From contig JAUJNY010000001.1 of the NCBI GenBank assembly GCA_030447955.1, positions 185,209-249,208 on the forward strand: DNA of 64,000 bases, read 5' to 3'. Source of the stretch: Jiangellales bacterium. Its GTDB lineage: Bacteria; Actinomycetota; Actinomycetes; Jiangellales; Jiangellaceae. Of this stretch, positions 7,532 through 56,546 are shown piece after piece. Every line of letters starts with the position of its first letter. Position 1 is the stretch's first letter. Made by a program: the position numbers and the translations under genes. The notes beneath the pieces were generated by a model. The model saw nothing but the letters and a program-made list of their open reading frames with translations. It was not told where the DNA came from and ran no database searches.

Positions 7532-8595
7532 GCGCTTCGATCCGCAGCGAAGGCGTGAGCCACGCCGCCGCTGAGTCCGGCGGCCACGCTTCCACCGGGG
7601 ATCCCCTCCTCGCGGTGGAGGACCTGGCCGTGCACTTCTTCGCGAGATCCGGGCTCCTGAGGCGGGTAGGAAGCCGGCTGCGAGCGGTCGATGGCGTGAG
7701 CCTCTCCCTGGCGGCGGGCGAGACGCTCGGCCTAGTCGGCGAGTCGGGCTGCGGCAAGTCGACGACGGCGCTGGCCATCATGCGCCTGGTTCAACCGACC
7801 TCCGGCCGGATCGTCTTCAACGGCCGGGACCTGGCGGGATACTCGCGAGCTCAGCTACGCGATGTGCGGCGCGGCATCCAGATGGTCTTCCAGGACCCGC
7901 ACGCGTCGCTGAACCCGCGGCTGAGGGTCGGCGCGAGCATCGCCGAGCCGCTGCAGATCCACGGGAACGGCGATCGAGCAGCCGTACGGACCCGCGTCGT
8001 CGAGCTGTTGGAGATGGTCGGCCTCGACCGGGTGCACGCCGACCGGTTCCCCCACCAGTTCTCCGGCGGCCAGCTGCAGCGGGTCGGGATCGCCCGCGCG
8101 CTCGCCCTCGACCCTCAGCTGCTGGTCCTCGACGAACCGGTCTCCGCCCTGGATGTCTCGATCCAGGCCCAAGTCATCACCCTCCTCCAGGACCTCCAGG
8201 CCGAGCTCGGTCTTGCCTACCTGTTCATCTCCCACGACCTGTCGGTGGTCCGGCACGTCTGCGACCGGGTGGCCGTGATGTACCTCGGCCGCATCGTGGA
8301 GCAGGGCGACCGAGCCAGCATCTACCGCCGACCCTCACATCCCTACACCCAGTCGCTGCTGTCGGCGGTCCCACGCCCGGACCCCCGCCGTCGAGGTGCC
8401 ACCGGGCGGATCGTGCTCACCGGCGACCTCCCCACCGCGGTCGACCCCCCATCGGGCTGTCGCTTCCGCACCCGCTGCTGGAAGGCCGAGCAGCTGTGCG
8501 CCGAGGACAGCCCCGAGCTCGTCGACCGGCTCGGCGAAGGAACCCTCAGTGCGTGCCACTTCGCCGAGACGCTGACGTTCGACCACAAACTTTGA
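7528..8595 (+). CDS. Peptide/nickel-type ABC transporter ATPase (DppF/OppF-like)
   Basis: Second ATPase of the importer, 355 residues, starting at a GTG that overlaps the upstream stop (GTGA). It shows Walker A GESGCGKS, Q-loop MVFQDPHASLNPR, signature FSGGQLQRVG, Walker B LLVLDEPVSALDVS and the switch His in LFISHDLSVV. The C-terminal domain has HPYTQSLLSAVP and the Cys pattern SGCRFRTRCWKAEQLC. It ends only 20 bp from the end of the convergent DppC gene, so the two transporter halves must be transcribed from opposite ends. Confidence 0.9.
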   Translation: MSASIRSEGVSHAAAESGGHASTGDPLLAVEDLAVHFFARSGLLRRVGSRLRAVDGVSLSLAAGETLGLVGESGCGKSTTALAIMRLVQPTSGRIVFNGRDLAGYSRAQLRDVRRGIQMVFQDPHASLNPRLRVGASIAEPLQIHGNGDRAAVRTRVVELLEMVGLDRVHADRFPHQFSGGQLQRVGIARALALDPQLLVLDEPVSALDVSIQAQVITLLQDLQAELGLAYLFISHDLSVVRHVCDRVAVMYLGRIVEQGDRASIYRRPSHPYTQSLLSAVPRPDPRRRGATGRIVLTGDLPTAVDPPSGCRFRTRCWKAEQLCAEDSPELVDRLGEGTLSACHFAETLTFDHKL

Positions 8596-33839: not shown

Positions 33840-34235
33840 GTGTTCCCCGGTGGCCTCGACATGCAGCAGCTGCTCGAGCAGGCGCAACAGATGCAGCAGC
33901 AGGTCGCCTCCGCGCAGGAGGAGCTGGAGGCCGAACGGGCGCACGGCACAGCTGGCGGCGGGCTGGTCACGGCCACGGTCACCGGCACCGGCGAGTTGGT
34001 GGCGCTCGACATCGCGTCGCAGGCGTGCGACCCGGACGACCCGCTCAGCGTGGAGAGCCTGGCCACCCTCGCCGATCTCGTGGTAGCAGCGGTCCGCGAC
34101 GCCACCCGCGCAGCACAGGAGCTGGCCGCCGATCGGCTGGGGCCGCTGGCACACGGCATCGGCGCGCTCGGTGGGCCGGGCGGCCTGCCCGGGGGCGATG
34201 CCACCGGGGCGGTTCCGCCGCCGTCCGGCGGCTGA
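33840..34235 (+). CDS. YbaB/EbfC nucleoid-associated protein
   Basis: Small DNA-binding protein of 131 residues that sits between dnaX and recR as in most bacteria. [20 protein letters not shown] is the long N-terminal helix, followed by [20 protein letters not shown], the family's beta-hairpin. The C-terminus is Gly/Pro-rich and variable. GTG 33840 is preceded by GAGGAG 6 nt upstream. It belongs to a dnaX-ybaB-recR operon. Confidence 0.92.
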
Positions 34236-52744: not shown

Positions 52745-53809
52745 ATGACGAGACCCGCTCTCGCTGTTCCGGCACCGCACCACAACCTGTCCCTGCTCAG
52801 CCTGACGGGGGAGCACCCGCGCGACACACCACTGGCCATGGCAAAGATCGCAACTATGGACGGCACGTATCCCTTCTCGGCCGGCCGGGATGTCCCAGGC
52901 CGTCAGCGCCCCGCAGACGTCCTGCCGCCCGGCGCTCAAGTCATCGCTAGCTACGATTCCCCTGACTACAGCGCCACATGGGCTCGCTGTGGCGACGGCT
53001 CCGTCATCGTCTTGGAGTTTCCGAGCCAAACGCAGGTCGTCGCCATGGCCCGCAGCGCGACGGCCGCCTCTGGGCTCCTTGAGCGTGTCGTCGTGCGGTG
53101 CGCCGAGCCCGTCAACGACGACGTACGGGCCGTGCTCTGGCTGCTCGGCCAGAACGGCCCGACGCGGCAGCCGCGGAAGTTCCAGACGCCACCCTGGGAA
53201 CAGGTCGCCCGCAACTACCCGGCGGGCACCGCCCGACAGATCACCGCACTGCTAGAGGCAGGGACGCCCACCGGCTCCGGACGGCTCCTGCTATGGCATG
53301 GTCCGCCCGGCACGGGCAAGACCAGTGCCGTCCTGGCATTGCTCCACGCCTGGCGTCACTGGTGCGCCGCCGACGTCATCGCTGACCCGGAGCGCATGTT
53401 CGGGGACGCCGGTTACCTCGTCGAGGTGCTGGCTCAGCCCACGATGAGACGGCCGTGGCGACTCATCGTGTGCGAAGACGCGGACGAGTACCTGCGAAGT
53501 GACGCGCGTCAACGATCAGGCCCTGCTCTGGGCCGGCTGCTCAACGCCTCTGACGGGCTGCTGGGGCGGGGAGGTCGCAACCTGGTTCTGCTGACGACCA
53601 ACGACGAGCTGGGCCGCCTGCATCCCGCAGTTACCCGCCCCGGCCGCTGCCTGTCACTAATCGATTTCGGGCTGTTCTCCGCGACGGCAGCCGGGGCGTG
53701 GCTGGGACGGTCCGTGACGCATCCGATGTCGCTGGCCGAAATGTACGAGCAGCAGAGCGGCGGGCAACGTATTGGCCGCGAGCCGTTGCCGATCGGGACC
53801 TACCTGTGA
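52745..53809 (+). CDS. AAA ATPase with DUF5925-type N-terminal domain
   Basis: A 354-residue ATPase. Residues 1-150 form a DUF5925-like domain (GDGSVIVLEFPSQTQVVAMA); a second part (about 150-330) is a classic AAA module: Walker A WHGPPGTGKTSAVLAL near 184-199, Walker B WRLIVCEDADEYL near 238-250, sensor-1 LVLLTTNDELGRLHPAV near 281-297, and arginine-finger region TRPGRCLSLIDF near 298. Most like FtsH/CbbX-type AAA proteins. GAGGAGG lies 11 nt before ATG 52745. Its GTGA overlap with the next gene makes an operon with two DUF6308-like genes. The target is unknown. Confidence 0.82.
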   Translation: MTRPALAVPAPHHNLSLLSLTGEHPRDTPLAMAKIATMDGTYPFSAGRDVPGRQRPADVLPPGAQVIASYDSPDYSATWARCGDGSVIVLEFPSQTQVVAMARSATAASGLLERVVVRCAEPVNDDVRAVLWLLGQNGPTRQPRKFQTPPWEQVARNYPAGTARQITALLEAGTPTGSGRLLLWHGPPGTGKTSAVLALLHAWRHWCAADVIADPERMFGDAGYLVEVLAQPTMRRPWRLIVCEDADEYLRSDARQRSGPALGRLLNASDGLLGRGGRNLVLLTTNDELGRLHPAVTRPGRCLSLIDFGLFSATAAGAWLGRSVTHPMSLAEMYEQQSGGQRIGREPLPIGTYL

Positions 53810-54441
53810 GCGCCCTCGTCATTGGCGGCCGGCCGCTGCACGACGCCATGGACCTGGTCCGTCGCTACTGCGGGCTTCCTTGGAGCGGCGGGGCCGACGA
53901 GACGTGGGCCTATCGGTATTTCGATGCTGTCGACGTCGAGCGGTCTGACCGGGTCGAACCGGTCGACGTCCTGGCCGCCGCGGCATTGCACCCCGGGCTG
54001 AGACATGCAGACCTCACATGGTTCTGGCAGCACCGCGATGACCTTGTGCGGCTACTGAAAGATTTGCCACCGGCCGTCGACCTCGCCGACGCCGATGGGC
54101 GCGTCGTCGCAGCCGTTCAGGCCCTGCCGCGGCAACTGTCTGAAGCTGCCCCCGGGCTCAGCCTGCTGACCAAGGTGTTGCACCGAAAACGACCGCGGCT
54201 CGTGCCGATGCTCGATCGGGCACTGCTCGATCGCTACCGAGCGAGATTGCCCGGACGCGGCACAGAGTCCTGGGCGCGGCTGGTGGAGGCCCTACGCGAC
54301 GATCTCACCGTGCCCGCGAACGCGCGCATCCTAAGTGAACTGGCCGACTCGTTGTCCGGCGACTTGCGCGCGGTGCCGACGCACCTACGGCTCGTGGACA
54401 TCGCCGTCTGGATGCAGGCACGCACGAGGATCGAAGGATGA
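53806..54441 (+). CDS. DUF6308-like protein, first copy
   Basis: A 211-residue, mostly helical protein from a GTG overlapping the AAA stop. The core GLSLLTKVLHRKRPRLVPML followed by DRALLDRY (near residues 117-145) and the end LRLVDIAVWMQAR match the second copy, and resemble DUF6308 (conserved S/T-K-L-x-R-K-R-P ... P-x-x-D). No catalytic motif is recognised. RKRP...D signatures of this type hint at a nucleic-acid-related fold, but that is inference. Cotranslated with the ATPase. Confidence 0.7.
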   Translation: MSALVIGGRPLHDAMDLVRRYCGLPWSGGADETWAYRYFDAVDVERSDRVEPVDVLAAAALHPGLRHADLTWFWQHRDDLVRLLKDLPPAVDLADADGRVVAAVQALPRQLSEAAPGLSLLTKVLHRKRPRLVPMLDRALLDRYRARLPGRGTESWARLVEALRDDLTVPANARILSELADSLSGDLRAVPTHLRLVDIAVWMQARTRIEG

Positions 54442-54510
54442 TCAGCATCCGGGTTGCTTGGGGCCATCGGGACAGATGGCCGTGTCACCGAAAGGGGAGC
54501 GGACGTTTCA

Positions 54511-55224
54511 ATGGATGTGACAGACATGACCATGGTCAGGGTCGGCGGCCAACAGGTGCCGCGCGACGAGGCGATGACGTTCGCTCGGGACTACCTCGGC
54601 GCCCAACCCCCTTGGCGTTCGGCCTACCCCGCCTACGACTCCTACGAGGCTGCGCGGGCGCGGGGGCCGTTGACCGAGGCTGACCTGCTCGCGCCGGCGC
54701 TGCTGAACGTGCAGCAGATGAGCCTGCGCGCGTATTACGAGCTCCTCGAGGCGCTCCCGCGGCTGTCGTCGCTACTGGACGACCTGGATCCAGAGCTCAG
54801 CCTCGTTGCGGCACAGCCGGATCACCTGCACGCAATCGGGGCGCTGTACGGCGTGCTCGACGACAGTGATGTGCACGGGACGCGCGGAACGCGGCTGAGC
54901 AAGATCCTGCACCGGAAGCGGCCAGCGCTCATTCCCCTCTACGACGAGCAGGTCCGCCGCTGCTACCAGGTTGGCGAGGGCACGCACGGTCAGGGCGCTC
55001 CCGTGCCGCCCGTGAAGGGCCGATCCTGGGCCGACTTCATGGTGGCTTTCGCTGGCGCCGTACAAGAGGATCTCGTCACCCAGCTCGACACCTGGGAGGC
55101 AATCGCCGGCCTCGCCGCCGACCCACCCATCACCCCGCTCCGGGCGCTCGACATCATCGCCTGGCACGCAGGTGCTCCCTTGTCACGGCCGCGTCAGCGT
55201 CGACCATCCCGGGTTAGGACCTGA
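54511..55224 (+). CDS. DUF6308-like protein, second copy
   Basis: A 237-residue paralogue of the preceding protein: TRLSKILHRKRPALIPLY with DEQVRRCYQVGEG (near residues 127-157) and LRALDIIAWHAGAP at the end. The N-terminus differs (VPRDEAMTFARDYLGAQPPW). The 69-bp gap, with AGGGGAG about 12 nt before the ATG, keeps it in the same operon; MTMVRVGG at 54526 is an alternative start. Its 3' end overlaps the convergent HNH gene (its last ~40 bp), as the HNH reading frame runs on after a frameshift. Confidence 0.7.
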   Translation: MDVTDMTMVRVGGQQVPRDEAMTFARDYLGAQPPWRSAYPAYDSYEAARARGPLTEADLLAPALLNVQQMSLRAYYELLEALPRLSSLLDDLDPELSLVAAQPDHLHAIGALYGVLDDSDVHGTRGTRLSKILHRKRPALIPLYDEQVRRCYQVGEGTHGQGAPVPPVKGRSWADFMVAFAGAVQEDLVTQLDTWEAIAGLAADPPITPLRALDIIAWHAGAPLSRPRQRRPSRVRT

Positions 55225-56546
55225 AGCCTCAACTCTCGCTGAGCCGGCGTGGCATCCCGCTGGGTCGTATTGCGGCCAGCGGCAAGAGCTCAGGCTGCGC
55301 GGGGTGGGCGTAGTCGTTTGATGTGGTGGGGCGAGTGGGGGTGGGCGGACTTGGTATTGGCGGCCGGTGGGGGTGGTCCAGGTGAAGACGCCGGGGTGGT
55401 GTTGGTGGAGGTGGAACCCGGCTTGTTTGGCGCGGTGGTGACGCCGGCAGGGGGGCCGAGGTTGCCGGCCGTGGTGGGCCCGTCGGGGTGGGCGATGGTG
55501 TGGTCGAGGTCGCAGTACTCGGCGGGGACGGTGCAGGTGGGGAAGCGGCAGTCCTGGTCGCGGGCGATGACGTGCCCGGCGAGCACAACACCGGGGTCGT
55601 GGGTGTCGGCGGCGTAGTCCAGTAGGGAGCCGGTGGGCGGGTCGGTAAGGATCCGGCGCCAAGTAGCGTCCTGAGCGATGCGCCGTGCCATGGACGCGGG
55701 GATGGGTCCATACCCGGCGAGCCAGCCGGGTTCGTCGCTGACACCGAGGAGGGTGTCCGCGCCGACGGTGACGTGCAAATGGGGGCGGGCGCGGCGCCGC
55801 CCGGCCAGTGGTATCCCGGCTAGCCCGCCGGCGTCGCAGATGGCCCGGCCGAGCTCGAGCAGGGTGTCGGTGCGGAGGTGGCCCAGGGTGCGCGCCTCCT
55901 CCGGGTCGCGAAGCTTCGTGCGGGCGACCCCATCGAGGGCGGTGTACAGGGCGGTGATGCCGTCGGCGGGGCCGTACACCCACAGACAGGCCATCCCGTC
56001 CTCGTCGGGGCGGCGTTCCACCCGCCGCTGCGCACGGGCCCGGTGGTGGCGCGCCTCCCCACCGGCGGGGTCGGCGGCCAGCACCGCGCGGCGCAACGCG
56101 GCGCGCAGCTGCGGAGCGCTCTGCTCGGGTGCCCGGGGCAGCACCCGCGCCTCCACCGCGGCGACCTGATCCTGGTCGGGAAGCCGGGCGGTGGCCTCCA
56201 CCACGCAGCGGGCCCGGTAGTAGTCCAGCCCGCCGGACTCCAGCGCGGCCAGCGTGGCGGGCAGCCGGGTGCTCAGCTGCTGGGCCACCCACATCCGGTC
56301 CCGCGCCGCGTTCGGGCTGATCCGGATCGCCAGCGACACCTCATCGGGGACGAACTCGGCCAGCCGGGTGCCCCGACGCGCCGCCTCCAGCGCGGCCATC
56401 GCCCGCAGCTGCACCGCGTGCAGGCGGGCGACCTCTCGCTCACAAAACTCGATAACGTCGAGCAGCCCATCCGGGTCGGCCGGCAGCGGGCTAGCGGCTG
56501 CCGGCGATGCAGCGACTGGTGCGCTCCGGTCCGGTGTCTCGAACAT
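55183..56546 (-). pseudogene. DUF222-HNH endonuclease (13E12-like), frameshifted
   Basis: An actinobacterial DUF222 plus HNH protein. DUF222 region: VIEFCEREVARLHAVQLRAM, VSLAIRISPNAARDRMWVAQ, LDYYRARCVVEATARLPDQD; then VTVGADTLLGVSDEPGWLAG and the HNH core DQDCRFPTCTVPAEYCDLDH, PDGPTTAGNLGPP. At 55450-55455 (six G on the plus strand) the frame shifts; one extra C on the coding strand yields the required CRRHHRAKQAGFHLHQHHPG, giving a full HNH (His-Asn-His) with C4 zinc ligands, running to a stop at 55183. It overlaps the convergent DUF6308 gene. A LexA-type box covers the start codon. Confidence 0.8.

Follow-up and report, generated by a model that had tools for sequence, protein, structure and literature searches.

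Organization of the locus

The window (the whole stretch of 64,000 nucleotides that was analyzed) carries on its forward strand a gene for an AAA ATPase, followed by two genes, here called A and B, for small proteins of the DUF6308 family (Table 1). The three genes were present where the original prediction had placed them, their families were matched by Pfam profiles, and the overlap reported between the first two was also found, the GTG start of gene A sitting on the stop of the AAA gene. The G+C content of the block (66–70%) is lower than that of its flanks (approx. 71–77%), which is consistent with a recent arrival.

Table 1. Features of the three-gene block (window coordinates).
Feature	Position	Strand	Description	Basis
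DUF5925-AAA ATPase gene (P0001)	52745-53809	+	ATG start, 354 aa, Bcs1-like	Pfam, AlphaFold2, Foldseek
DUF5925 domain	52853-53254	+	residues 37-170, beta-rich, N-terminal to AAA module	Pfam, AlphaFold2
AAA module	53291-53671	+	residues 183-309	PF00004, motifs
G-T-Y-L (residues 351-354)	53795-53806	+	putative 20S proteasome docking motif; tail 341-354 disordered	
AAA/gene A stop/start overlap (GTGA)	53806-53809	+	4 bp	
Gene A (P0002), DUF6308	53806-54441	+	GTG start, 211 aa, trio-specific type, degenerate hairpin	PF19827
A, HhH/GPD-like core	54142-54216	+	residues 113-137; K123, P134, invariant D137	
Gene B, DUF6308	54511-55224	+	ATG start, 237 aa	PF19827
B, HhH/GPD-like core	54871-54945	+	K 54901-54903, invariant D 54943-54945	

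The neighbors of the trio are ordinary actinobacterial genes, encoding an MBL-fold hydrolase, Crp and endonuclease III, plus a DUF222 gene (55290-56546, opposite strand) that adjoins the end of the trio and, together with the lower G+C content of the latter, may mark an insertion site. Elsewhere in the window (34139-34233), ARAGORN called a tRNA of unassigned identity with a two-base anticodon, which may be a pseudo-tRNA or an integration scar.

Domains and fold of the AAA ATPase

The product of the first gene matched the profiles of DUF5925 (PF19347; E=1.3e-12, 48.1 bits against a cut-off of 27) and of the AAA family (PF00004; E=3.3e-8). The full set of AAA motifs that had been claimed for it was recovered, i.e. 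Walker A (GPPGTGKT, residues 186–193), a Walker B-like motif with the order E-D instead of D-E (LIVCEDAD, 240–247), sensor-1 (TTN, 284–286) and the RPGR of the Arg-finger region (298–301). As we read the alignment, a phenylalanine that is almost invariant (F219) lies near the position of pore loop 1; this residue and the E-D order of Walker B would fit a Bcs1-like motor able to grip a chain.

When the AlphaFold2 monomer model (pLDDT 77.4) was used as a Foldseek query, the top match was Bcs1 (8t5u; E=2.4e-12, 345 columns), with YjoB next, then 26S Rpt subunits and Cdc48. The best reading of the protein is a Bcs1-like ATPase, its ring being predicted from the monomer model. Bcs1, a mitochondrial membrane protein transporter, and YjoB are thus the best fold matches for the modeled protein as a whole, and we know of no docking tail in either of them.

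A C-terminal tail of the proteasome-docking type

All of the 45 distinct homologues from the class (45/45) end in exactly G-x-Y-L, preceded by a variable, unconserved stretch. Overall, with phages and other classes included, this ending was present in 57 of 65 homologues (GLYL in 33, GQYL in 10, GMYL in 5, GFYL in 3, GTYL in 2, and others). In the model of the window protein the pLDDT drops below 50 from residue 341 onwards, as expected of a docking tail. Mpa/ARC and Bpa/PafE terminate in GQYL, which is needed to open the 20S core, although the Q is dispensable (PMC12288473; PMC6017811); the Mpa proteins from four of these genomes all end in GQYL. Among approx. 700 called genes in the loci examined there was a single other G-x-Y-L ending, that of a Cpn10/GroES-family protein of 110 aa (L077:13463-13795, + strand; PF00166, 3.1e-18), which terminates in TGLYL and is possibly a second non-Mpa proteasome interactor.

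The prediction that the AAA protein docks on the 20S proteasome is well supported by these sequences, and we infer that physical docking itself is likely. Neither DUF5925 nor DUF6308 is named in any open-access paper that we found, and the papers on the bacterial proteasome that were consulted mention Mpa/ARC, Bpa/PafE and Cpa as the only regulators or interactors.

The window protein resembles each of these three in part. (i) Like Mpa/ARC, it is an actinobacterial AAA ATPase (its ring being predicted) that ends in G-x-Y-L, a tail that the two have in common within the same genomes; however, Mpa has coiled-coil and OB domains, whereas the window protein has a DUF5925 beta domain and a Bcs1-like module, and its gene, unlike those of Mpa/ARC, is not in a pup locus. 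Membership of the Mpa/ARC family was ruled out, as P0001 gave no match to TIGR03689 and carries the DUF5925 beta domain in its N-terminal part. (ii) Bpa/PafE also carries a docking tail (known in Bpa, putative here) behind a variable linker, and it was discovered by the same reasoning from motif and co-occurrence and later verified (PMC4254994), but it forms an ATP-independent dodecameric ring, whereas the window protein is an ATPase. (iii) Cpa, the Cdc48-like protein of actinobacteria, is likewise an AAA ATPase with a connection to the 20S core particle (one made here by sequence); it is, however, a Cdc48 homologue without a GQYL/HbYX tail (PMC6017811), whereas the window protein is Bcs1-like and tailed.

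Phage homologues and tails of another type

Homologues ending in AVGQYL were identified in the mycobacteriophages Myrna (gp262), Phabba and ScoobyDoobyDoo, whose host is M. smegmatis. On viral contigs, one homologue (L140) also ends in AVGQYL, and two others end in GQYL (L145) and GVYL (L144). In the three mycobacteriophages the gene is located inside a PRPP/NAD-salvage operon; in these Myrna-type phages (L120:3188-6869, L121, L122) the GQYL-tailed AAA gene stands between genes for PRPP synthetase/phosphoribosyltransferase and NadV.

The eight homologues that lack G-x-Y-L come from other classes or viral contigs (L141-L143, L146, L156, L158-L160), and every one of them ends near a hydrophobic-G-[FLY] pattern (AIGF, VIGF, MGFK, LGLR, IGLGGR, IGYLT, FGFAA, FGF...). 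Of 691 called proteins, 16 have such a pattern in their final 14 residues. The pattern resembles LGF/IGF, the ClpP-docking motif (PMC10149685), and a switch of the partner protease is possible; since the pattern was noticed after the fact, it is a lead and not a test. The two types of tail interleave on the tree of the AAA proteins. Four cellular genomes contain a homologue of this kind, two without a proteasome and two (G510 and G549) with one, while both genomes outside the class with a G-x-Y-L homologue (2/2) have a proteasome.

These findings bear on another explanation, in which the AAA protein would be a free-standing chaperone similar to Bcs1/YjoB that assembles or disassembles a heteromer of A and B, its G-x-Y-L binding a target other than the proteasome. 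Its closest structural matches are indeed not proteasome regulators, and homologues without G-x-Y-L exist, even in proteasome-bearing genomes. On the other hand, the tail is the sole conserved part after the variable linker and is identical to a known docking motif, and the phage copies retain GQYL in a host that has a proteasome. We consider this explanation unlikely, and prefer docking on the proteasome.

Co-occurrence with the proteasome

The AAA family, defined by matches at E<=1e-20 to a two-sequence profile, was present in 86 of the 395 Actinomycetes genomes sampled, and 84 of these 86 encode PrcB. No PrcB-less genome with the AAA gene has a completeness of at least 90%; the two exceptions are incomplete assemblies, namely G077 (84% complete), where Mpa and PafA/Dop matches lie by a contig edge, and the window's own (82% complete), in which no proteasome gene was found. 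The latter assembly is also without tatC and a confident match to trmI, and as these two genes are 15 kb apart in the relative G001, their absence is consistent with a missing stretch. The absence of the proteasome genes from this genome (that of the pup locus was judged from the flanking genes) counts against docking on the proteasome, its only explanation being the incompleteness of the assembly.

If 20 genera are taken as independent draws, arithmetic from these tallies gives about p=0.01 for the co-occurrence. As PrcB is common in the class (309 of the 395 sampled genomes), the co-occurrence provides modest supporting evidence only, and it is the tail that carries the weight.

Recurrence and mobility of the trio

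The block had been proposed to be a unit of one AAA ATPase and two diverged DUF6308 proteins, for which recurrent adjacency across actinobacteria would be support. All three genes were found together in three of the 395 sampled genomes, i.e. the window's own, G022 and G322 (Mycolicibacter longobardus), and additionally in M. sinensis E1572. The gene order is A-AAA-B in G022 and in the two Mycolicibacter species, and AAA-A-B in the window. Junction overlaps of 1–4 bp were observed in L118 (6612-6615 and 7706-7709), in L117 (6615 and 7709-7712) and between the AAA gene and gene B of G022 (889-892). Because the three gene families are co-located in other families of the class, their set, order and overlaps are far beyond chance. 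The A proteins form an orthologue group of their own, confined to trios in the data examined: P0002 is 47% identical to the A protein of M. longobardus and 39% to that of G022, compared with approx. 28% for B.

The trios occupy different genomic sites (the his region in G022, a response-regulator region in M. sinensis, nrdF/PE_PGRS in M. longobardus and MBL/DUF222 in the window), which indicates that the trio moves as a cassette, judging from these sequences, and constitutes a real but rare, horizontally moving operon. In M. longobardus a gene for an XRE-type regulator is located directly upstream, on the same strand. An OGG-like gene (PF21790; L061:12919-13590) lies approx. 3 kb from the trio of this species, beyond a PE_PGRS-like gene.

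What stood of the proposal is therefore the recurrent operon with its trio-specific A orthologues, found also outside the window; regular adjacency did not, as only three of the 86 genomes with the AAA gene contain the trio and DUF6308 was absent from approx. 20 other AAA neighborhoods of 5–17 kb. A partnership of DUF6308 with the AAA protein as a general rule was ruled out, most AAA loci being without DUF6308, and for the same reason the three-gene machine is a real but derived arrangement. Searches for related loci in genome contigs found none with the AAA protein as the query, and a second scan with an A-type DUF6308 protein yielded three. The trio proteins were not found in the plasmid collection, the lone AAA match there being an 11.9-Mb Nonomuraea record that is really a chromosome, and the related-locus search of viral contigs did not find DUF6308.

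The AAA and DUF6308 genes (the latter present in 67 of the 395 genomes) mostly occur apart and both are patchily distributed, as would be the case if mobile DNA had assembled the three as cargo without any relation to one another. This is very improbable, given the same three families, the trio-specific A orthologues, the two gene orders and the 1–4-bp junctions in four genomes.

The DUF6308 proteins

Both partner proteins matched PF19827 well above its cut-off of 27.3 (A, E=5.7e-25, 88.8 bits; B, E=4.6e-45, 154.3 bits), and they are 28% identical to each other over approx. 219 columns (BLASTP E=5e-10), which identifies them as true paralogues, as had been proposed. The RKRP...P...D core said to be common to the two proved nearly invariant in 52 DUF6308 sequences (K in 50, P in 52 and D in 52).

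This core is probably a helix-hairpin-helix, after which an invariant Asp stands at the spacing of endonuclease III; it shows remote kinship to the OGG-like family PF21790. Several DUF6308 members have a textbook helix-hairpin-helix, e.g. L086 (LPGVGPTTASKLLARKRPRLRPIYDSVV), in which the distance from the Leu of LPGVG to the Asp is 24 residues, as in the window's own Nth (EndoIII); an Asp occupies the GPD position in all 52 sequences, at an offset equal to that of this Nth. The Pfam HHH profile (PF00633) matched two members, at E=0.0015 and 0.0045, below the cut-off. In a comparison of profiles, DUF6308 scored 19.3 against PF21790, with K and D in register, while none of 100 column shuffles scored above 14.9 and the reversed profile reached 14.1.

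In contrast to PF21790 and endonuclease III, DUF6308 is without an HhH-GPD match in Pfam (PF00730 was searched in A, B and five other members), a conserved EndoIII catalytic Lys and the Fe-S cluster motif. In most members S, V or T takes the place of the EndoIII lyase Lys (alignment position 129), and a conserved Lys occurs one helical turn later. As hhalign of DUF6308 against a single EndoIII sequence performed no better than shuffles, the case for a glycosylase is based on the comparison with OGG, the HHH matches and the spacing of the Asp. A Foldseek search with a poor model of B (AlphaFold2 pLDDT 55, seven sequences) gave no fold match in the PDB, the list being noise. An HhH-GPD-like nature of DUF6308 is, on balance, somewhat favored, and we refer to A and B as probably glycosylase-like, putative DNA-binding proteins, without claiming HhH-GPD membership. 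It does not hold that no motif connects the trio with anything described, since the tail of the AAA protein is the proteasome-docking G-x-Y-L and this helix-hairpin-helix/GPD-like signature marks the core of DUF6308.

The hairpins are degenerate in both window proteins. Every trio has a degenerate A-type hairpin, while G022 keeps an intact hairpin in B and Mycolicibacter one that is nearly intact. Such a distribution might be expected of a pair resembling a toxin and its antidote, in which B is a DNA-damaging glycosylase, the degenerate A restrains it and the AAA-proteasome route sets their turnover; the genes are also mobile, small and coupled, with the XRE-type regulator upstream in M. longobardus. 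However, the hairpin of the window's B is degenerate too and the position of the lyase Lys is not conserved, and we regard such a pair as rather improbable.

Stand-alone DUF6308 genes are often located in mobile or defense surroundings, including relaxase-bearing regions, and their neighbors comprise type I R-M (L124:1019-7873), MkoB-like (L130:69-7120) and HerA/PDC-M05A (L119:2444-8928) genes. These surroundings would agree with an anti-phage module, in which the glycosylase-fold proteins A and B recognize modified or invading DNA and the AAA protein and proteasome execute or reset the response. DNA glycosylases do act in phage defense (PMC11078745), and the Brig1-type enzymes described there offer a possible functional analogy only (a glycosylase against phage DNA), with no sequence relation claimed. 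Against this, the PADLOC 2.0 models gave no convincing match to any trio protein (best 0.0025, around the P-loop) and the trios lie outside recognizable defense islands, which makes a defense module quite improbable.

Proposed mode of action

We propose that the Bcs1-like AAA protein feeds the 20S proteasome and that the two DNA-binding, glycosylase-like proteins are its adaptors or clients, a reading to which, in this broad form, we give an even chance. The AAA ring would dock on the 20S particle as Mpa/ARC and Bpa do, its set of G-x-Y-L tails entering the pockets of the alpha ring, and would thread clients into the proteasome. A and B would probably bind DNA as a pair, of which the B type usually keeps the helix-hairpin-helix and the A type is a degenerate copy. 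As adaptors or clients of the AAA protein, DNA-bound A and B, or proteins on that DNA, would be extracted and degraded; this relation to the AAA protein is the more doubtful part, and is put forward tentatively.

The operon, its recurrence, the conservation of the tail, the co-occurrence with the proteasome and the HhH/Asp signature are read directly from sequence; physical docking, DNA binding, the pairing of A with B and the client relation are what we infer from them. Homologues without G-x-Y-L in the proteasome-bearing G510 and G549, the lack of proteasome genes in the window's own assembly, the degenerate hairpins of the A type and of the window's B, the poor DUF6308 model with no PDB match, and the usual occurrence of the AAA gene without DUF6308, count against the proposal.

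In its most far-reaching form, which is unlikely to hold in full, the DUF5925-AAA proteins would be an unrecognized family of protease-docking ring ATPases with tails that switch between a proteasome type (G-x-Y-L) and a ClpP-like type (hydrophobic-G-F/L/Y). Mycobacteriophages would use them to take over the proteasome of the host, and in mobile operons they would be coupled to glycosylase-like DNA sensors for proteasome-linked DNA surveillance or defense.

Significance

Few regulators of the bacterial proteasome are recognized (Mpa/ARC, Bpa/PafE, Cpa), and the Pup-independent entry of proteins is an open question. With the AAA family in over a fifth of the sampled genomes and the docking tail in all 45 of the distinct class members examined, true docking would add an ATP-driven route of entry into the proteasome. 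The phage AAA proteins with their perfect GQYL would, as far as we are aware, be the first hint of phages making use of the bacterial proteasome. The trio, in turn, would link this route to proteins that, by their sequence, are glycosylase-like and may act on DNA.
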